Positions 18,858 through 29,852 are shown, counted from the first letter of the stretch. The stretch is DNA of 36,039 bases from an uncultured Paracoccaceae bacterium (GCA_937884725.1 CAKZYH010000480.1:1-36039), one strand, 5' to 3'. Notes: generated by a model not told the origin, from the letters alone. Made by a program: numbers and translations.

Positions 18858-19053
18858 ACCAGCTTTGCCTTTTTGTCGGTGATTGACGGAACTGAGGGCG
18901 TGACCCAATGCGCCAAGAAGTAGGCTGAGCACCACGGCGCCGATGCGCATCTCTTCTAAGGGTGTCAGCCCCTTTGTGTGCGGCTTGCAAGCCGACCCCA
19001 TCGGCCTCACACTGCGGACGGATGGCAACTGTGAGCTGCGGGGCGATCTACAC

Positions 19054-19839
19054 ATGGATGCTTTGACCGTCACGGGCGAGGCACTTCTCGAACTCTTTAT
19101 TTACGCGCTCGTCATTGAAAGTGCTTTGGCGGTTTTGTTCAATTGGCGCGTCTTTAAGATATACTTTGGTGGTCGCGGTCTCCGTACGGTGATTGCGATC
19201 GTCGTGTCAGTCATTGTTGTCTATGTCTTTAAGATTGATGTGCTCGGCGACCTGGTTTTCGCTTTCGACGGTTCTCCTTCCGATATAGCGCCTGAGGATG
19301 ATCCGCGGGACAGAGATATTGGTAAGATAATAACTGCGCTTGTACTCGCCGGCGGAAGTGGCGGCGTGCACAACCTTCTGACGATCCTAAACTTTCGCCC
19401 CCAACAACTTAGCGCAGTGGCACAGCGCCGGAAAGAACTCGAAGACGCTCAGGCGGCGGCCGGGGGTAACATTGCGTATGTTTCGATCACTGTGAATGCC
19501 GCTGCCGGTGTCGGCCCGATCATGATTAGCTTCGAAGTCGTCAACTCACCTCCAGATGATACTCGGCTCGTGTCGGGTATTGTGATGCAGGACCCACCGC
19601 CGTTCTCGGCAATGTTTCGTCGTAATTGGAACCGCTTTCCTAACTTCGGTGGGTACACACTCCAAGCAAACAAAGCCTATCTGATCTACATGACTGCAGA
19701 GGCTCAAGATGGTTCCTTCGTGTCGAGAAAAGTCTACCAACAACCAGTGAAGTTTTCGAAGAATGCAATCATAGACCTGCACGCAAAGTTTGACCCGAAG
19801 GCGATTCCCGCGCCGATGATCGAAGATTCGGGGGCGTAG
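19054..19839 (+). CDS. Hypothetical membrane protein
   Basis: MDALTVTGEALLELFIYALVIESALAVLFNWRVFKIYFGGRGLRTVIAIVVSVIVVYVFKIDVLGDLVFAFDG... hydrophobic N-terminal half then a soluble C-terminal domain; in-frame ATG at 19054; visibly less GC-rich than its neighbours. Confidence 0.6.
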   Translation: MDALTVTGEALLELFIYALVIESALAVLFNWRVFKIYFGGRGLRTVIAIVVSVIVVYVFKIDVLGDLVFAFDGSPSDIAPEDDPRDRDIGKIITALVLAGGSGGVHNLLTILNFRPQQLSAVAQRRKELEDAQAAAGGNIAYVSITVNAAAGVGPIMISFEVVNSPPDDTRLVSGIVMQDPPPFSAMFRRNWNRFPNFGGYTLQANKAYLIYMTAEAQDGSFVSRKVYQQPVKFSKNAIIDLHAKFDPKAIPAPMIEDSGA

Positions 19840-19876: not shown

Positions 19877-20356
19877 TTAGGTCGCGCCCTCATCACGAAC
19901 GCGCCGCAGCCGATCGATGGCACCCTGCAGGATAAATGCGGCGGCCACCTTGTCGATGGCCTCCCGACGCCGCGCGCGCGACGCATCGGCCGCAATCATC
20001 GAGCGCTCCGCTGCAACTGTGGACCACCGCTCGTCCCAGCCCACGATTGGGCGCGGATCGCGTGTGGCAAGGTTACGCGCGAAATCGCGCGTGGACTGCA
20101 CCCGCGGACCGGACGAGCCATCCATGTTGAACGGCAACCCAATCACGTGGCCGACAACGCCATACTGGTCGGCGAGTGCGATGAGTTCATTCGCGTCCGC
20201 CGTAAACTTCGTCCGCCGGATCACACGAAGCGGCGAGGCCACCTGCCACGCGCTGTCGCACACGGCGATCCCAATGGTCTTGGTGCCCAGATCGAGGCCA
20301 AACAGCGGGCCCGGCGTTGCCACGAGCGCCTCGACGGGGGTGAACGGATCGCTCAT
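19877..20356 (-). CDS. ruvX: Putative pre-16S rRNA nuclease / Holliday junction resolvase YqgF (RuvX)
   Basis: [34 protein letters not shown]...[29 protein letters not shown]...[17 protein letters not shown]...[17 protein letters not shown] at 20356 overlaps the upstream stop. Confidence 0.95.
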
Positions 20357-21075
20357 GACGGGGGCGGAGGCGCAAACAAGGTTCCCGCATCCGTCCAACC
20401 TGCGGCCGGATGGGTACGCACCGTCTCTGCAAACGCGGCAACAAAAGCCCTAATCGGGCCGGTGTGAACCAGATGATGGGTCATGAGGCCGATGGGCCCA
20501 TGTTGGTCAAAGGCGCGTTCGATCATGGCGCTCAGCGTCGCCTGCGGTTGGAACTCGCGCCCAGCATGCCAAGCAATCGGATCGATATGCACATCAACGC
20601 GGCGCATCGGCCCGGCAACGGTCGGACCGCCAAACAACGACACGCCGTGATAACCCGCCGCCGGCAGCGCGTCGAGCACGCCACGCGCGGCACGGTTCCA
20701 GGGCGGCACCATCACAGGCAAAAATGCTGGCGACACCGCCAGCCTCGCCCTGGCGGCGACACATCCCGTAATGACCTCTTCAGGTGGCCGAGCATCACCA
20801 AGCTCGGCTGACTTGCCGGCGCCCTGGTGGTTCGTGTGGCTGACGCCGTGTTGAAGCACCGCAACATCCCGGTCCTTGCATAACTCCAAGAGCTCGCTGG
20901 TCGCTCCGTCTGGAATAACCGCCAGCGCGAGCGGCGCCCCGGCGGCGTCATTAAACAGGCGGTCAAGCGCGGCCGATAGAGCGGTCGCATCATCGTCGCG
21001 CCACCAAAAAAGCCGCCGCTCTCCCCGAGCCGCCGCGGCGTCCAGCAGGCGCCGAAGCGTAGAGATCGCGCTCAT
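20353..21075 (-). CDS. Polysaccharide deacetylase-like (NodB-type) protein
   Basis: [21 protein letters not shown]...[10 protein letters not shown]...[21 protein letters not shown]...[29 protein letters not shown]. Confidence 0.78.
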
Positions 21076-22175
21076 CCGCCTGCGAGTGTCTTGATGTGCC
21101 GTGCAGCCCGCGCTGCCCCATCAGCACGGATCTTGATGTTGGGGCGCGGCCCAGCCAGCGCTGCCTTGGACGCGGCCAGCAGCTTTTCGGGCGTGAGTAT
21201 CTCCGGATCGATGACCGAAATCCCCTGAAACTGGGAATACAGCGCCGCACGGTCGCTCTGTTCGGTTTCGTCACCGTCGGCAAACGGAATGAGCACCATC
21301 GGCGGACCGGCAGCAATGGCATCCAGAAAGGTGTTGTAGCCGGCTTGGCTAATGCAGAGCGATGCACCCCCAAGAAAGCTCTGAAAATCACGCCGATTGG
21401 GCTCAACGGTGACGTTGGCGGGGGCCATGCGCTGCCAACCGGCAATGCTGTCGGCCAGCGGCTTGGGAATGAGCAGGTGCCAGGGCGGACCCTCTGGCCA
21501 AAGCGCGGCAGCACCTAAGGCGGCTTCAAACAGCCCAGAGCCAAACCCACCACCCCCTGCGGTCACCACGATTTTCCCGTGCGGCTCAGCACTCCCGCTG
21601 ACCACCACGTTGTGAATATAGCCGGTGTAGTGAACCGGCGGGATTTCGGCAGGGTCCATATGGAACGTGTCGCGCGGCCCGGTCAGCGTCTCGTCCCCAT
21701 GGACGATGATGTGGTCCATCGTCTCGCGCGCCACCTTCGCCATAAAGGCGCGGCGCGGAACGTCTTTGCGCACCAAGATATCGCGCACCGAGCTGATAGT
21801 GATGCCGCCGCCCGCCCGCACCTTGGCAAGCGGTTCGCGAAGCTCCGCCGCAAACGGCTTGCGGCCAAACGGAAAGCCCTCGGTGATGAACGCGTCCGCG
21901 CCGTCCACCGCTTCCAGGATCGCTTGGCGCCGCTCGTCGGCAAGGCTCGAATAGCCCCCGTCAGGCCCGCCCAGGTTCTTAAAGTCCTGCTCGATCGTGA
22001 AGACCGGCGCCAACGTGACCGTTCGGATCCCGCTGAGGTCGAGCGTATCGGGCGGCGTGGCGCCCAGAATCAGGGTGGTGTCGATCCCCTCATCGTTCAT
22101 GGCACGCGCGAGGGCCGAGGCGCGCACCGTGTGCCCCGTCCCCAAAAGATGCTGCACCCAAATCGCGGCCTTCAT
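21072..22175 (-). CDS. MurG/GT28-like glycosyltransferase
   Basis: MKAAIWVQHLLGTGHTVRASALARAM...KIVVTAGGGGFGSGLFEAAL...FLGGASLCISQAGYNTFLDAIAAGPPMVLIPFADGDETEQSDRAAL. Confidence 0.82.
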   Translation of the reverse strand: MKAAIWVQHLLGTGHTVRASALARAMNDEGIDTTLILGATPPDTLDLSGIRTVTLAPVFTIEQDFKNLGGPDGGYSSLADERRQAILEAVDGADAFITEGFPFGRKPFAAELREPLAKVRAGGGITISSVRDILVRKDVPRRAFMAKVARETMDHIIVHGDETLTGPRDTFHMDPAEIPPVHYTGYIHNVVVSGSAEPHGKIVVTAGGGGFGSGLFEAALGAAALWPEGPPWHLLIPKPLADSIAGWQRMAPANVTVEPNRRDFQSFLGGASLCISQAGYNTFLDAIAAGPPMVLIPFADGDETEQSDRAALYSQFQGISVIDPEILTPEKLLAASKAALAGPRPNIKIRADGAARAARHIKTLAGG

Positions 22176-23263
22176 GGTGCATTGTCCCTATAGTGTTGAG
22201 CGGCCCGCGCCAGAAGTGCGTCAACGCTAGTCGCGCCAGCCGCCAGGTCCCGCTTTGCGGCAAAACTCAGCGCTGCGGCGGACATTGCGCGGCGGCGCTC
22301 CGGGTTCTTGGCAAGGTCGATCATCGCTTCCGACCATTGCGCGGTGTCTGTCGGCGGGGTCAAGATCGCGCTTGCATCGCTGACAACATCGGGCACGCCG
22401 CGCGTGTCGCCCCCGATCACCGGAAGCCCGGCGGCTTGCGCTTCCAAGAACGCAAAACCGAACGGCTCCTCGATGGCGGGCCACACAAAAACGTTCGCGC
22501 TCCTATAAAGCCGCGCCAGCTCAGGCTGGTTGAGAAGCCCCACAAAAGTCCCCTCCGGAAAAAGCGGCTCCAGCTCGCCGCTTGCATCGCCATCGCCCGC
22601 CACCGTGAGCCGGGCCGTCGGGCACGCCGCCGCCACGGCCGGCCACGCCTCGGCGAGCACTTTGATGCTGTCTGCCTTGCGGCCGGGGCGCAGCATCGCG
22701 GCGGTGGCGAAATGGCAGTCGTCGTCGGCCGTGCGCACAGCCGCATCCTGAAACGGCGCCGTGTCGACAAACGGCGGAAACGGCGCCACCGTGTCCGCGG
22801 CAAAGTCGGTGAGCGCCGGCAGATCGCTCCGCGTCACAGCCGCCAGCGCGTTGGCGCGCCTCAGCGCGTGGTCGGCATGGGCAAAGTGCACCGCCCAAGG
22901 CCCCGTGGCGCGCCGTGGGGAGCGGCTCGGCTCAACGATCGCGTAGGGCAGGCCAAACGCCTCAGCGAGCCGCGGACCCACAAGGTCAGGCCCCTTATGG
23001 TAGTTGTGATAGGTGAGGATCGCGTCAGGCGCCTCCTCAGCCCGCCACCGATCCGAAATCTGCGCCAGGTAGGTTTCCGCCTCCGCTTCGATGTCCTCAA
23101 GGCCCTCAGGCGTCTTGCGCCATGTCTTGAGCGCCGTCAGCGCGTCGACGTCGTGGCCGCTGTGGGAGAGCGCCGCCAGCAGCAGGCGGGCAAAGGTGCG
23201 GTCGCCGGACGGGGTCGGGTGGTTCGGCGGCTTCATGGTGGTGATGAACGCGACCCGGCTCAC
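22172..23263 (-). CDS. Group 1 (GT4-like) glycosyltransferase
   Basis: C-terminal ARLTVAGDGDASGELEPLFPEGTFVGLLNQPELARLYRSANVFVWPAIEEPFGFAFLEAQAAGLPVIGGDTRGVPDVV. Confidence 0.9.
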   Translation of the reverse strand: MSRVAFITTMKPPNHPTPSGDRTFARLLLAALSHSGHDVDALTALKTWRKTPEGLEDIEAEAETYLAQISDRWRAEEAPDAILTYHNYHKGPDLVGPRLAEAFGLPYAIVEPSRSPRRATGPWAVHFAHADHALRRANALAAVTRSDLPALTDFAADTVAPFPPFVDTAPFQDAAVRTADDDCHFATAAMLRPGRKADSIKVLAEAWPAVAAACPTARLTVAGDGDASGELEPLFPEGTFVGLLNQPELARLYRSANVFVWPAIEEPFGFAFLEAQAAGLPVIGGDTRGVPDVVSDASAILTPPTDTAQWSEAMIDLAKNPERRRAMSAAALSFAAKRDLAAGATSVDALLARAAQHYRDNAP

Positions 23264-24477
23264 GCCGCAATGCGCCCGCCCACGGTGCTTTCAATCCGCC
23301 GCAACAGCGTTGCGATGCCTGGCGCCGGCGAAAAGTGTTCGCGCACCCGCACCGCCGCCGCCTCGCCCATCCGTGCCCGCCTCGCCGGATCGCGCGCCAG
23401 CGTCATGATCGCGTCCGCCAGCGCCGGCGGAGACTGGGGTGCCACCAGCACACCGGTCTCTTCGGTCACGATCTCCGGGATTGCCGACACATCCGTCGCC
23501 ACAACAGGCAGCCCCATGGCCATCGCCTCCATGATGACGTTGGGCAGCCCATCGCGGTCGCCATTCTTGGCGATACGACTGGCCAGAACGAAAACATCGG
23601 CGCGCCGGTAAGCCTCGATCACCGCATCCTGCGGCTGGGAGCCGTGAAACGTAATGCGCTCTGCAATCCCAAGCGTTTCCGCCCTGCGTTTCAGTCGCTT
23701 GGTCAGCGCTCCGCCGCCGATGTGCTCGAAGCGCCAATCAAGGTCGCGCGGGAGCTTGGCAAGAGCGCTCAGGAGATCACCAAGCCCCTTTTTCTCCACC
23801 GCCCGGCACACCGATACAATGGTGAGCGGGGGAGTGGCAGAGCGCCGAGGCGCGGGCGGAAAGCGGGTGAGATCAAGCCCGTGATACACCAGCTCAAGCT
23901 GCTCCCGTGCTGGGTGAAGCGCGGCAAGAAACTCCCAGTTCGCGCGGGTGCAGGTCGTGCCCCACGCTGCGCCTGCCATCTTCTGGGTCAGGTCCCACGA
24001 CGGCGTCGTATAAATATCCTTCGCGTGCGCCGAAAACGCGTACGGGATCCCCGTCATCAGGCTCGCGTACCGCGCGACCGACGCTGGCGTGTGCAGATAG
24101 TGCACGTACAAAAGCCGCGTGTCCGCCGGCAACTCTGCGGCCAGCACAGCAGCCTGACCCCACCGGCGTGCCCGGCTCACCGAGCGGTCGCGGGCCCAGT
24201 CCGCATCGTAAGCGGCCTTTGCGGCGGCGTAACCCGGCAACGTTTTCGCGATCCGCCGCGCCGCCGCGACCCGCGCCGGATCATCCTGCAAATACTCCGG
24301 CAAATACAGGACCGGCGCCGTGATATGCCGATGCATTTCGTGGACTGAGCGCTCTGTCGGATGGCGCAGCGACACGATCTGTAGCGCCAGCCCGGCGTTT
24401 TGAAAGGCCAATATCTCTTGCGCGATGAACGTCTCCGAAAGGCGCGGATAGCCTTTCACGATGATCGAGACGCTCAT
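23260..24477 (-). CDS. Group 1 (GT4-like, WcaL-like) glycosyltransferase
   Basis: MSVSIIVKGYPRLSETFIAQEILAFQNAGLALQIVSLRHP...AVEKKGLGDLLSALAKL...ADVFVLASRIAKNGDRDGLPNVIMEAMAMGLPVVATDVSAIPEIV. Confidence 0.9.
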   Translation of the reverse strand: MSVSIIVKGYPRLSETFIAQEILAFQNAGLALQIVSLRHPTERSVHEMHRHITAPVLYLPEYLQDDPARVAAARRIAKTLPGYAAAKAAYDADWARDRSVSRARRWGQAAVLAAELPADTRLLYVHYLHTPASVARYASLMTGIPYAFSAHAKDIYTTPSWDLTQKMAGAAWGTTCTRANWEFLAALHPAREQLELVYHGLDLTRFPPAPRRSATPPLTIVSVCRAVEKKGLGDLLSALAKLPRDLDWRFEHIGGGALTKRLKRRAETLGIAERITFHGSQPQDAVIEAYRRADVFVLASRIAKNGDRDGLPNVIMEAMAMGLPVVATDVSAIPEIVTEETGVLVAPQSPPALADAIMTLARDPARRARMGEAAAVRVREHFSPAPGIATLLRRIESTVGGRIAA

Positions 24478-25697
24478 CCCGACGCGGCGGTCAGAGGGAT
24501 CGGTGCGCGGGCAAGTTCCCGTTGCGCGAGGATCGCCTCGGCGCGCGCATTGATTTGGTCGAGCCCCGACAGAAGGTCGCCGACCCCAGCTTCTGAAGGC
24601 GGCGGGTTGTCAGGCAGCTCGGCAAGAGCGTCCACCATCACATCCACGTCCGGATAAGCGTCGATGGGAAGGCATGTAAGGAGGCCCGCCTCCGCGGCCT
24701 TGCCTGCCCGGATCGCCTGCTCGCGCCGCGGTTTCACCCGGGGTACTAAAAGCGTTGGCTTATCGAACGACAAGATCTCACAGAACGTGTTGTAGCCACC
24801 CATCCCGACCACCGCCATCGCCTGCGCCATGAGGTGCTCAATGGTCGGCGTGAACTCCAGCACGTGGACCAGGCGCAGTGCCTCGGCGCGCGCCATGAAG
24901 CGGCGCTGTTCGTCCACCGGCATAAACGGGCCAAGAACGATGATGGCCGGGAACAGCGGCCGCTCCTGCGCCTCGTAAGCGCGCAACACCCAGTCCACCA
25001 ACTCTCGTCCATCCCCGCCACCGCCGGGTGTCACCAGGATGAAAGGATCGCTGCCAAATGGGTTCTCGCCAGGGCTCGCTTCGCGGGTCGGGACCTGGCG
25101 CTCCAGATACCCTGTATAGAGAAGCTTCTCGCGCACCGCCGGCGAGACCGTGATCCCCTCCAGCGGATCGTGGATCGCTTCTTTGCCGTAAACCCAAATG
25201 TCATCGTAGAGTTCTTCGAGCGCCTGGACCGCGTTTTTGCGATCCCATTCCTCAGCAAGGCTCGCCGGATCGTCCATCACATCGCGAAGACCCATCACGA
25301 GCCGCGTGCCCCGATCACGCAGCATCTTGAGCGTGGGCTCCACCTCGCCGCGCAGCCCCAGTGGCTCCTTATCGACTAAGAAAATGTCAGGATCGAACAC
25401 GTCCGCCGTGTGCTTGATGATCGAGCCACGCAGCTCCAGCAGGTGGTCGATATCAAGCGACAGTGAGCGTGAGGTGTATGCGCCATTGTGCAGCTTGATC
25501 ACGCCAGGCACCCTCACAAAGTCCACGCGCGCGCGAAAGTCGAAGCTGCCGATGATCGGCGAGCCGGACAAAATGATGATCGACAAGCGGCTCATCGCAC
25601 CGACCATAGCGTGCGCGATGGCCCGACAACGGCGCAGATGCCCAAGACCGAACGTGTCGTGGGAATAGATCAATATGCGGGGCTGCGCGTTATGCAT
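24474..25697 (-). CDS. MurG/GT28-like glycosyltransferase
   Basis: PRILIYSHDTFGLGHLRRCRAIAHAMV...FILVTPGGGGDGRELVDWVLRAYE...HLMAQAMAVVGMGGYNTFCEILSFDKPTLLVPRVKPRREQAIRAGKAAEAGL; ATG at 25697 preferred over TTG 25721. Confidence 0.85.
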   Translation of the reverse strand: MHNAQPRILIYSHDTFGLGHLRRCRAIAHAMVGAMSRLSIIILSGSPIIGSFDFRARVDFVRVPGVIKLHNGAYTSRSLSLDIDHLLELRGSIIKHTADVFDPDIFLVDKEPLGLRGEVEPTLKMLRDRGTRLVMGLRDVMDDPASLAEEWDRKNAVQALEELYDDIWVYGKEAIHDPLEGITVSPAVREKLLYTGYLERQVPTREASPGENPFGSDPFILVTPGGGGDGRELVDWVLRAYEAQERPLFPAIIVLGPFMPVDEQRRFMARAEALRLVHVLEFTPTIEHLMAQAMAVVGMGGYNTFCEILSFDKPTLLVPRVKPRREQAIRAGKAAEAGLLTCLPIDAYPDVDVMVDALAELPDNPPPSEAGVGDLLSGLDQINARAEAILAQRELARAPIPLTAASG

Positions 25698-25818
25698 CAC
25701 TGCGCGCAATAGCGTAGCCAAAGCCCCGCTTCAATGAAGCCAAAGCTCAACCGACCGCTTGATGCGGTGTTGTGGTTTGTGCGCAACCGTTGGCGATCGC
25801 AGCCCCAATCCGCCGAAC

Positions 25819-25843
25819 CCGCACAACGAATATGGTTGTGCGG
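25819..25843. promoter_or_regulatory. Perfect 9-bp inverted repeat in the divergent promoter region of the glycosyltransferase and ABC operons
   Basis: CCGCACAAC (25819-25827) GAATATG GTTGTGCGG (25835-25843). Confidence 0.5.
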
Positions 25844-25914
25844 CCGCCCATTCCCGTGCGCTTGCGTATGGGTTGGCCTAGCGCCGGCAGTTCGAAACGC
25901 ACGCGGGATTGGCG

Positions 25915-28521
25915 ATGGATCGCTCCCTGTTCGGGTTTATTTGGCGGTACTCCAAGCGTCAGCAGCTGATCATTCTGGCGCTGACCGTCACGTCTTTCCC
26001 GATCCTCTACATGACCCTCGAACTGCCCAAGTGGATCGTCAACGACGCCATTTCCGGGACTGATTTTCCAAAGGACCTGTTCGGCATCGAGCTCGAGCAA
26101 ATCCCGTATTTGCTGGTGCTGTGCTTTATGTTCCTGGGCCTCGTGGTGGCCAACAACGCCATCAAATACGTCCTCAACATGACCAAGGGCGTATCGGGTG
26201 AGCGCATGCTAAGGCGCCTGCGCTTTATGCTCTACAACAGCGTCTTACGCTTCAGGCTGCAACGTTTCCGCCGCGTATCGGGCGGTGAAATCATCCCCAT
26301 GATCACCGCAGAGGTCGAAGACGTCGGCGTTTTCATCGGTGAAGCCATCGCAACACCTGCGTTTCAGGGTGGTACGCTGCTGGTCTACATCACATTTATC
26401 TTTGCCCAGGATCCGTTCTTGGGCGCGGCGGCGGTCTCCCTCTATCCGTTCCAAGCCTACATCATCCCGAAACTGCAGCGCCGGGTGATCATGCTCACCC
26501 GCGAGCGGATCAAAAACATCCGCACCATCGCCGACCGCATCGGCGAGACGGTGAGCGCCGCGCCCGATATCCACGCCAACGATACCGCGCGCTACCACAT
26601 GGCCGACCTCTCAGATCGGCTATTCATCAACTATCGGATCAGGCTTGCGATTTTTAAACGCAAGTTCATGATCAAGTTCCTCAATAATTTCCTCAACCAA
26701 CTTCCGCCGTTCTTCTTTTATTCTGTCGGCGGTTATTTGGTAATCCAAGGCGAGCTTTCGTTCGGCGCGCTCGTTGCTGTCCTCGCAGCCTACAAAGACC
26801 TGGCATCTCCCTGGAAGGAGCTGCTCAAATGGTATCAAAACCTTGCCAACGTCTCCACGAAGTACGAGACGGTCGTCGAAGCCTTCGACGTGGATGACAA
26901 AATGCCATCCGAACGCCTCGGTGGCGATGAAAGCGACAGCACGGTCGACGTCGGCAACGAACTCGCCGTGCAGTCCGCCACTGTGTCCGCCGGGGGAAGC
27001 AGCACGGAAGTCTCCGACGTGTCGCTCACGGTGAGCGAGGGCGAAAAGCTTGCCGTCTACGGCCGCGATGGCAGCGGGCGGACCGAACTCCTCATGACCA
27101 TGGCCGGCCTCTACGATCCGGTCAGCGGGCGCGCGACCCTCGGCGGCAAGCGCTTCCAAGAGCTCTCCCACTGCACCATCGCTAAAGCGGTCGCCTACGT
27201 CGGGTCGGACCCGTTTGTCTTCAACGACACATTGCGCGCCAACGTCGTCTACAGCCTGCGCGGCGCACCGCAGGATGAGGACAAGGACGAACTGGCGATG
27301 CTGCGCCGGGCCGAAGCCATCCTGACCGGCAACTCGCTTCACGCCGTTCACGTCCCGTGGGAGGACTTTGGCCGAGCCGGTGTGAGCGATGCCGACGCCC
27401 TCGACGATCGCCTGTTGGAGCTGTTCGAAGTGGTCGGCCTTGCCGGCGACCTTTACCGTCTGGGCCTCAGCGCTCGGCTGGATGAGGCGGAAGCGAAGCG
27501 TCTCGCCGACAAGATTCTTACCGCGCGGAGCGAAGTGGTCCGCCGTGTGGGCGAGGACCGCAAACTCGCCGACCTCGTCGAACTCTGGGATCCGAAAAAG
27601 ATCAACTTCTCCGCGACGCTCGGCGAAAACATCATCTTTGGCGTGCCCACCGATCCGGGCATTCATGTTTGGGACTGCGCGCACAACAAAGCGATCCAAG
27701 CCGCGCTGCGCAAAGCGGGCATCTTCGACCGCCTCGTCAAAATGGGCGCCACCATCGCCGAAACCATGATCGAGCTCTTTGGCGAAACCGGTGCCGACGC
27801 CAGCCTCATCGGCGACTATTCGTTCGTGAGCGCAGACGAGCTGCCGTTGTTCGAAGAGCGGCTGCGCGCCTTGCGCGCGAAGGGCATCAATGGCCTGCGC
27901 GAGGACGTCGCCTGCGCCTTCATCAGCCTGGCGTTCCGCCTCATCCCGGCGCGGCATCGGATTATCACCGTCGACGAAGAGCTGGAAAAGGCGATCCTCA
28001 CCGCGCGCCCGATCCTTGCCGCAGAGCTGAAAGACGACAAAGACCACAGCCTGTTCGACGTCAAAGCCTTCTCGGAACCGCTCTCGGTGGAAGAGAATAT
28101 TTTGTTCGGTAAGCCGCGGGCGGACCGGCGCGGCGCGCGCGAACGCATCGACGAGCTCCTGCGCGACACAATTGCCTCGCTGGAGCTGCGCGATCCCATC
28201 GCCCGCGCGGGGCTGAACTTCAGCGTCGGCGTTGCCGGCGGGCGCCTGTCCGGCGGCCAACGCCGCCGCGTCGGATTGGTGCGCGCGATCATCAAGCGGC
28301 CGCATATCGTGATCATCGATCAAGTGGCCGATGGCGATGTGGCGCTCTTGGACAGCATCAAGAGTGCAGTCGGCGATGCCACCCTCATCATCGGGACAGC
28401 GGATCCCGCGGTCGCCAAGCGCTTTGAGAATGTGGCGGTCATGCGTGACGCAGAACTAGTGGCAACCGGGTCTTGGGACACAGTGAGCGACGTGGCGCTC
28501 GGCAACGAAGATGCGGCGTAG
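25915..28521 (+). CDS. ABC exporter-like protein with degenerate, expanded nucleotide-binding domain
   Basis: Type I ABC exporter-like membrane domain (MDRSLFGFIWRYSKRQQLIILALTVTSFPILYMTLELPKWIVNDAI...SFGALVAVLAAYKDLASPWKELLKWYQNLANV), then VYGRDGSGRTELL, LSGGQRRRVGLVRAIIKRPHIVIIDQVADGD; ATG at 25915. Confidence 0.88.
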   Translation: MDRSLFGFIWRYSKRQQLIILALTVTSFPILYMTLELPKWIVNDAISGTDFPKDLFGIELEQIPYLLVLCFMFLGLVVANNAIKYVLNMTKGVSGERMLRRLRFMLYNSVLRFRLQRFRRVSGGEIIPMITAEVEDVGVFIGEAIATPAFQGGTLLVYITFIFAQDPFLGAAAVSLYPFQAYIIPKLQRRVIMLTRERIKNIRTIADRIGETVSAAPDIHANDTARYHMADLSDRLFINYRIRLAIFKRKFMIKFLNNFLNQLPPFFFYSVGGYLVIQGELSFGALVAVLAAYKDLASPWKELLKWYQNLANVSTKYETVVEAFDVDDKMPSERLGGDESDSTVDVGNELAVQSATVSAGGSSTEVSDVSLTVSEGEKLAVYGRDGSGRTELLMTMAGLYDPVSGRATLGGKRFQELSHCTIAKAVAYVGSDPFVFNDTLRANVVYSLRGAPQDEDKDELAMLRRAEAILTGNSLHAVHVPWEDFGRAGVSDADALDDRLLELFEVVGLAGDLYRLGLSARLDEAEAKRLADKILTARSEVVRRVGEDRKLADLVELWDPKKINFSATLGENIIFGVPTDPGIHVWDCAHNKAIQAALRKAGIFDRLVKMGATIAETMIELFGETGADASLIGDYSFVSADELPLFEERLRALRAKGINGLREDVACAFISLAFRLIPARHRIITVDEELEKAILTARPILAAELKDDKDHSLFDVKAFSEPLSVEENILFGKPRADRRGARERIDELLRDTIASLELRDPIARAGLNFSVGVAGGRLSGGQRRRVGLVRAIIKRPHIVIIDQVADGDVALLDSIKSAVGDATLIIGTADPAVAKRFENVAVMRDAELVATGSWDTVSDVALGNEDAA

Positions 28522-28541
28522 ACGGTGAAAGGGGAGACTTC

Positions 28542-29003
28542 ATGAGCCTCGACGCAGATTTAGCGGCACTGCGCAAAATCCCGCTGTTCCGCGGCGTGGA
28601 TGATCAGAAGCTACGCCTGCTCGCCTTCATGTCCGAGCGCACCTTATTTGATGCGGGCGAGGACCTGATGGTGGAAGGCGACTTCGGCGACGTCGCCTAC
28701 ATCATATTGTCCGGCCAAGCCGATGTGCTCATCAACACGCCAACCGGCCGCCAGAAGGTCGCGTCCGTCAAAGAAAACGATTTCGTGGGCGAAATTGCGA
28801 TCCTCATCAACGTGCCGCGCACCGCAACAGTCACAGCGTCAGCGGATTTAGTCGCTCTCGGCATCTCTAAAGAGCATTTTTTTAAGCTTGTGAGCAATTT
28901 TCCTGACATGGGTGTGGAAGTCATGCGCGCGCTGGCGCAGCGTCTGGAACGCACCACGCGTGAGGTTGGGCGGCTGCGCGCGCAGCTGCCGCAAAACGGT
29001 TAG
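28542..29003 (+). CDS. Stand-alone cyclic nucleotide-binding (CRP/CAP-type) domain protein
   Basis: LRKIPLFRGVDDQKLRLLAFMSERTLFDAGEDLMVEGDFGDVAYIILSGQADVLINTPTGRQKVASVKENDFVGEIAILINVPRTATVTASADLVALGISKEHF; no HTH domain follows. Confidence 0.93.
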   Translation: MSLDADLAALRKIPLFRGVDDQKLRLLAFMSERTLFDAGEDLMVEGDFGDVAYIILSGQADVLINTPTGRQKVASVKENDFVGEIAILINVPRTATVTASADLVALGISKEHFFKLVSNFPDMGVEVMRALAQRLERTTREVGRLRAQLPQNG

Positions 29004-29015
29004 GGCACGCAAGCG

Positions 29016-29852
29016 ATGGACGACCAGGCGCTGTCAGTTACCTTTTGGGGCGTGCGGGGCTCAATCCCCGCACCTGGGCCAGGCACCGTGCACTATGGCG
29101 GCGAAACCACCTGTATCGAGGTGAACGCTGGCCCGCACACCGTCCTGGTCGATTGCGGATCAGGCGCGCGCCTCGCCGGACCCTCCCTCGCTGCACGAGG
29201 CATCACCGACCTCGACGTCGTCTTCACCCACACGCACATGGACCACATCTGCGGCCTTCCGTTCTTCAACCTTGCCTACAATCCAGCCGTTGCGCTGCGC
29301 TTCTGGGGCAGCCACACCGACGGTCAGCCCGAGCTGGAAGAGATCATCGAGCGGCTCATGTCACCGCCGATTTTCCCGATCCCCGCATCGTCCCTGAAAA
29401 ATACCCATTTCGGCCCGTTCACCGCCGGCACCGACCTCACGCTCGGCTGCGGCCTCACCGTCGGCACTACCCCGCTGCACCATCCGGGCCGCGCCACCGG
29501 CTACAAGTTCGAGTGGGCCGGCGCCACCGTCGCCATCATCACCGACCATGAGCACGGCAACCCCGAAATCGATGCCGGCGTCGCCGCCTTCGTGTCCGGC
29601 GCATCGCTCATGGTCTACGACGCCATGTACACCGAGGAAGAATACCCCAACCACGTGGGGTGGGGTCACTCCACGCCCGACAAAGCGGTCGCCCTCGGTG
29701 AGGCGGCTGGCGTCGGCGAAGTGCTCTTGTTCCATCACGATCCACGCCGCGATGACGCGACCATCGCCGCCGCTGACGAGGCGCTTGCCAAGCGAGGCCT
29801 CAAAGTGCGCGCCGCACGCCAAGGCGAGACTTTGGTCGTCGCTCCGCGCTAA
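29016..29852 (+). CDS. MBL-fold metallo-hydrolase
   Basis: VTFWGVRGSIPAPGPGTVHYGGETTCIEVNAGPHTVLVDCGSGARLAG...VVFTHTHMDHICGLPFF...TPLHHPGRATGYKFEWAGATVAIITDHEH...LLFHHDPRRDD: HxHxDH plus downstream His/Asp ligands. Confidence 0.93.
   Translation: MDDQALSVTFWGVRGSIPAPGPGTVHYGGETTCIEVNAGPHTVLVDCGSGARLAGPSLAARGITDLDVVFTHTHMDHICGLPFFNLAYNPAVALRFWGSHTDGQPELEEIIERLMSPPIFPIPASSLKNTHFGPFTAGTDLTLGCGLTVGTTPLHHPGRATGYKFEWAGATVAIITDHEHGNPEIDAGVAAFVSGASLMVYDAMYTEEEYPNHVGWGHSTPDKAVALGEAAGVGEVLLFHHDPRRDDATIAAADEALAKRGLKVRAARQGETLVVAPR

Follow-up and report, generated by a model that had tools for sequence, protein, structure and literature searches.

Exporters and flippases of type IV (ABCB-type), such as MsbA, PglK and TmrAB, combine a membrane domain with a nucleotide-binding domain (NBD), and the homodimeric ones are encoded by one half-transporter gene. 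CFTR has the fold of an ABC exporter but no longer pumps, being instead a channel gated by ATP and phosphorylation. In cyclic-nucleotide-gated channels of the SthK type and in the effectors of Pycsar systems, a membrane protein is joined to a cyclic-nucleotide-binding domain (cNBD), which acts as an input domain in nearly all known proteins that contain it. The Wzx/Wzy and Wzm/Wzt pathways bring together several glycosyltransferases and a transporter-like membrane protein. In Sinorhizobium meliloti, Clr-cAMP controls surface polysaccharide genes, its targets being the cluster nodP2-smb21248 (PMC5498481).

We analyzed a 36,039-nucleotide stretch of DNA from an uncultured Paracoccaceae bacterium (the window), which contains an eight-gene locus with a pseudo-ABC exporter. 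Among named organisms, those closest to the genome of the window are species of Acuticoccus, in the order Hyphomicrobiales. Like MsbA, PglK and TmrAB, this protein is encoded by one half-transporter gene and, as modeled, has the same membrane-domain and NBD fold; however, its NBD is split by a triplicated helical segment, the Walker A Lys, the Q-loop Gln, the catalytic Glu and the H-loop His have been lost, and its partner is a cNBD protein. Whereas ATP and phosphorylation gate CFTR, the conserved ligand domain here is the cNBD, and any channel activity would be hypothetical. Compared with SthK and the Pycsar effectors, to which the pairing of a membrane protein with a cNBD is common, the membrane domain is of the exporter type, rather than a channel or a four-helix effector, and the genomic context is biosynthetic. 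The presence of several glycosyltransferases next to a transporter-like protein recalls Wzx/Wzy and Wzm/Wzt, but this set has two GT28 enzymes and a cyclic-nucleotide link. Wzx, Wzy, Wzm/Wzt and an initiating phosphoglycosyl transferase are absent from the set and do not recur within 10 kb in annotated relatives; the original prediction, made from the sequence alone, that polymerase, flippase and initiating transferase are missing holds at the locus. S. meliloti carries a pseudo-ABC–cNBD locus on pSymB; Clr, however, is a transcription regulator acting on a different polysaccharide cluster, whereas the cNBD protein described here has no DNA-binding domain. No description of this gene set was found in the open-access full-text literature. 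The combination of sugar-transferring enzymes, a transporter-like protein with a decayed ATPase and a cyclic-nucleotide sensor suggests a surface-sugar system that has yet to be described and that cAMP or cGMP would switch.

Gene organization of the locus

The eight genes of the window are as follows.

20353-21075, minus strand: NodB/CE4-like polysaccharide-deacetylase-like protein, 240 aa (conserved motifs in relatives)
21072-22175, minus strand: GT28b, MurG-like glycosyltransferase, 367 aa (PF04101, 4.9e-08; syntenic orthologues)
22172-23263, minus strand: GT4b, GT4 glycosyltransferase, 363 aa (PF13692, 5.5e-23; syntenic orthologues)
23260-24477, minus strand: GT4a, GT4 glycosyltransferase, 405 aa (PF00534, 1.5e-35; EpsE/WcaL-like, far under NCBIfam cut-offs)
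24474-25697, minus strand: GT28a, MurG-like glycosyltransferase (PF04101, 1.2e-06; likeliest start ATG at 25697)
25915-28521, plus strand: pseudo-ABC exporter (PF00664 and PF00005; start ATG at 25915)
28542-29003, plus strand: stand-alone cNBD protein, 153 aa (PF00027, 4.2e-17; ATG at 28542, GGGGAGA upstream)
29016-29852, plus strand: MBL-fold hydrolase of the RNase Z-like zinc phosphodiesterase family, 278 aa (PF12706, 3.1e-18)

Pfam identifies Glyco_tran_28_C and Glycos_transf_1 in two genes each, ABC_membrane together with ABC_tran, cNMP_binding and Lactamase_B_2. Adjoining genes of the minus-strand chain overlap by 4 nt in every case and, with the likeliest starts, GT28a and the pseudo-ABC gene diverge across a gap of 217 nt, followed on the plus strand by gaps of 20 nt before the cNBD gene and 12 nt before the MBL gene. 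This is the layout originally predicted (with a divergence of about 220 nt), and all eight open reading frames are present. An Rfam search of the window matched no RNA element, and an alignment of the divergent promoter region from seven close relatives contained no conserved regulatory element. Upstream of the cluster lies an open reading frame of 298 aa without a Pfam match (18943-19839, plus strand).

The assignment of the last minus-strand gene as NodB-like is tentative: the motifs WWRDDDA, HGxxHxNH, PPWNR and THH are conserved in 18 relatives, but the window protein itself has no Pfam match. Some relatives reach Polysacc_deac_1 or DUF2334, weakly, and relatives carry the annotation polysaccharide deacetylase; no PDB match was obtained. 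In the MBL-fold protein the metal ligands (HxHxDH and a later His, Asp and His) are invariant in 22 sequences. Its relatives in the PDB are RNase Z and, weakly, Apyc1, and the match to NF041851 (3.4e-6) is far under the cut-off and outscored by RNase Z models. Judged from these sequence features, hydrolysis of a cyclic-nucleotide signal by the MBL protein is plausible.

Conservation and composition of the gene set

Co-occurrence was assessed in 384 alphaproteobacterial genomes, the window's own genome excluded. The pseudo-ABC protein is encoded in 128 of them and GT28a, the best-conserved glycosyltransferase of the set, in 126; both are present in 122, the pseudo-ABC protein alone in six, GT28a alone in four and neither in 252 (Fisher 6e-87, a value that ignores shared ancestry). 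Counted by family, both genes occur in 52 of the 55 families having either. In a sample of the phylum, the full-length pseudo-ABC protein was confined to Alphaproteobacteria; its carriers include Sinorhizobium, Rhizobium, Mesorhizobium, Azospirillum and roseobacters. The complete order NodB-GT28b-GT4b-GT4a-GT28a, divergent from ABC-cNBD-MBL, is found in Acuticoccus and Amorphus and, beyond these, in several further families of their order, and the class-wide order adds two regular items, a histidine phosphatase and an importer ATPase with a small membrane-protein gene. Many families across the class share this gene order, so the set is not a chance arrangement; it is a real, class-wide system. 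The proposal of a single non-standard system withstands the refuting condition originally attached to it, as homologues of the pseudo-ABC and cNBD proteins lie near these glycosyltransferases in most genomes and the co-occurrence of the pseudo-ABC protein with GT28a is almost perfect. The linkage of the genes is shown by these data, and the biochemistry discussed below is inferred.

The composition of 85 flanked loci is given here in descriptive figures, because close relatives are over-represented and assignments were made via tblastn: the cNBD adjoins or is fused to the pseudo-ABC protein in 100%, GT28a and GT4a are present in 78%, all four glycosyltransferases in 65%, the importer gene in 65%, the deacetylase in 59%, the histidine phosphatase in 46% and a class III cyclase in 28%. 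The MBL hydrolase, originally counted as a member of the set, is present in the window but limited to a subset of the loci (28%). About 20% of the flanked loci have none of the four glycosyltransferases nearby, GT28a being nearly always encoded elsewhere in the same genome.

In the class loci the histidine phosphatase (PF00300, 4.1e-40 in locus L129) lies between GT28b and GT4b, and the importer ATPase, of the oligopeptide type (family 5), lies with the small membrane-protein gene beyond the deacetylase. Both items were overlooked in the original picture, as were the degenerate ATPase and the insertion of about 270 residues described below. In the window genome, an importer operon of this type lies on a separate contig. 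In the window and its close relatives there is no histidine phosphatase between GT28b and GT4b, and elsewhere in the genome only weaker matches (29-41% identity) are found. Class III cyclases are encoded in the pseudo-ABC region of S. meliloti, R. leguminosarum, Phyllobacterium and Mesorhizobium (three in the Mesorhizobium stretch), and the window genome has 11 cyclase-domain matches, all outside the locus. In rhizobial loci (L178:22181-23923, L171:18028-19191) one linked cyclase carries a 2Fe-2S ferredoxin domain, and the neighbouring genes include those of a DUF3095 protein and a nucleotide sugar dehydrogenase. A small methyltransferase of the Methyltransf_17 family (PF12692, 1.5e-55; L129:11632-12117) is encoded just 3' of the cNBD gene in about one third of class loci and is absent from the window.

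A degenerate and interrupted nucleotide-binding domain

The elements of the pseudo-ABC protein are listed below by position in the window; residue numbers in the text start at the upstream TTG, at 25909.

about 25909-26898, plus strand: membrane domain, followed by the split, degenerate NBD
27061-27084, plus strand: degenerate Walker A, GRDGSGRT, Lys replaced by Arg (residue check)
27274-28083, plus strand: helical insertion of about 270 residues in the NBD, between Q-loop and signature (profile self-comparison; AlphaFold2)
28306-28323, plus strand: degenerate Walker B, VIIDQ, catalytic Glu replaced by Gln (residue check)
near 28396-28401, plus strand: H-loop, His lost (residue check)

The Q-loop Gln is lost as well, and the LSGGQ signature and the Walker B Asp are kept. 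Profile comparison reveals that the segment running from the Q-loop through the helical region is present in three copies, made up of the insertion together with its flanks, with residues 549-708 matching 709-800 at an E-value of 4e-14, 405-548 matching 549-708 at 3.2e-7 and 405-548 matching 709-800 at 1.7e-5. An AlphaFold2 model of the whole protein has a mean pLDDT of 85 and values over 85 for most of the insertion, and a Foldseek search with this model as query returned matches to ABC exporters. The description as exporter-like is therefore apt for the predicted fold, membrane domain and NBD alike, but the protein fails the catalytic-residue definition and is not to be filed as an active ABC exporter.

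Nine catalytic NBD residues were checked in 112 non-redundant members of the family. None of the 112 keeps all nine, the best (L110) keeping seven; the Walker A Lys is kept in 38 and the catalytic Glu position in 45, so some members may still use ATP. As a control, MsbA-like exporters of the same order retain the Walker A Lys, Q-loop Gln, signature, Walker B Asp/Glu and H-loop His in 31 of 31 cases. Mean pairwise identity in the pseudo-ABC family is 0.51 for the membrane domain versus 0.35–0.36 for the NBD, a relation that is reversed in the control (0.61 versus 0.65). Since the ATP site is eroded throughout the family, the protein differs from an ordinary exporter. A quick tree built on the membrane domain has at least 19 changes of state at the Walker A Lys, which is consistent with repeated decay of the ATP site, although change counts cannot separate gain from loss. 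Sequence error as the source of the lost residues was rejected, because Acuticoccus relatives share the losses, and so was a heterodimer with an adjacent intact half-exporter, as no such gene recurs across the loci.

Some relatives, about 400–430 aa long and about 40% identical to the pseudo-ABC membrane domain, have this domain only and no NBD.

L174:13773-15077: membrane-domain-only relative
L175:13758-15020: membrane-domain-only relative
L176:11788-12987: membrane-domain-only relative (others in L116, L144 and L222)

Their existence implies that a membrane domain of this type can exist without any NBD. On plasmids of roseobacters and Thalassospira they belong to copper-resistance islands that also encode multicopper oxidases and c-type cytochromes. 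A protein of 863 aa from a different family of the order (L221, G342:C1:867500-877500) has the same interrupted-NBD architecture; it is 27% identical to the pseudo-ABC protein over residues 349-803, its membrane domain looks unrelated and, by sequence, it would represent a second type of pseudo-ABC protein, divergent from the first.

The cyclic-nucleotide link

No partner of the pseudo-ABC protein is as constant as the cNBD, which in 14 loci is fused to the C-terminus of the pseudo-ABC protein itself, with at least five changes of fusion state on a quick tree. The phosphate-binding cassette of the cNBD is intact in relatives (Gly in 97 of 97, Glu in 90 of 97 and Arg in 97 of 97), in contrast to the eroded ATP site of the protein that it accompanies. 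The PDB matches of the cNBD profile include the SthK cNBD. In a model of a fused protein (pLDDT 85) the cNBD is well folded behind a linker that is disordered, so that no specific docking of the cNBD can be claimed.

Alternative interpretations

The protein could still be ATP-driven, through a relaxed site or a half-transporter partner with an intact NBD, and act as a PglK- or MsbA-like flippase of lipid-linked glycans with the cNBD as an added regulator. The exporter fold in the model and in Foldseek, the members that keep the Walker A Lys (38/112) or the catalytic Glu position (45/112), the LSGGQ and Walker B Asp remaining in the window and a locus without any other flippase all speak for such a protein. 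Nevertheless, Lys, Gln, Glu and His are jointly lost in the window lineage, no intact half-exporter recurs as a neighbour, membrane-domain-only relatives exist and the Lys state is highly changeable on the quick tree, and we regard an ATP-driven flippase as rather unlikely. A decayed NBD with a universal cNBD partner and a well-conserved membrane domain would also suit a receptor or scaffold without transport activity, one sensing the glycan or keeping the glycosyltransferases together and signalling through the cNBD. That interpretation would sit better with an output domain next to the cNBD, but none recurs there, and in nearly all known proteins the cNBD is a domain of input; the exporter-like fold kept by the modeled membrane domain also argues against it, and we consider it quite improbable.

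A Pycsar-like anti-phage system, in which a cyclase would act with a cNBD-linked membrane effector and the MBL protein would be the off switch, has a very low probability. The cNBD matches the PADLOC model PycTIR (2e-17), linked cyclases match PycC models and the MBL protein weakly matches Apyc1, but the pseudo-ABC protein has no specific defence match, the set is usually present in one copy per genome, with conserved synteny and tied to biosynthetic glycosyltransferases, and most loci have no linked cyclase (linked in 28%). A defence system was rejected as a classification, as the PADLOC matches are at the domain level only and come from the shared cNBD and cyclase domains.

Proposed function and implications

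The interpretation that we favour, with confidence that is about evenly balanced, is that of a glycan or glycolipid system, conserved in Alphaproteobacteria and controlled by cyclic nucleotides, whose membrane component is derived from an ABC exporter and probably independent of ATP. Two GT28 and two GT4 enzymes would build a short saccharide, probably lipid-borne, on the cytoplasmic side of the inner membrane, and the deacetylase would trim it. The pseudo-ABC protein may then translocate, gate or scaffold the product, taking its input from the cNBD partner, as a separate gene product or a C-terminal fusion, and not from the decayed ATPase. The cNBD would bind cAMP or cGMP supplied by class III cyclases, which are linked to the set in a number of genomes but encoded elsewhere in that of the window, and the MBL protein of those loci that have one may cleave either the signal or an intermediate. 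Against this interpretation stand the third of the family members that retain the Walker A Lys, the flanked loci with none of the glycosyltransferases nearby and the disordered linker of the fused model. What the analysis establishes is the gene set with its conservation and co-occurrence, the cNBD fusions, the loss of ATPase residues, the retention of cNMP-binding residues and, as a model, the fold, whereas the substrate, the direction of transport, the gating and the substrate of the MBL protein are inferred; the roles originally proposed (glycosyltransferases making a glycan or glycolipid, the ABC protein moving or sensing it, the cNBD and MBL proteins regulating) are likewise interpretations, and they fit the evidence.

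A bolder version, which we put forward tentatively and as doubtful, is that the pseudo-ABC protein has swapped ATP drive for cyclic-nucleotide gating and is an ATP-independent, cNMP-gated translocator of glycolipids, or a channel, conserved across the class. If true, CFTR, as an ABC protein that became a channel, would offer a parallel in kind, the switch here being the cNBD. In about one third of the sampled Alphaproteobacteria, a protein whose annotation reads ABC transporter, often with the addition ATP-binding, is without ATPase residues and tied to a sensor of cyclic nucleotides. Should this protein function in the proposed way, it would represent a new way of driving or gating an ABC fold and would provide a missing target of cAMP or cGMP signalling in bacteria with many orphan cyclases. 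In plant symbionts and marine bacteria, the gene set further suggests a glycan or glycolipid that has gone unrecognised.
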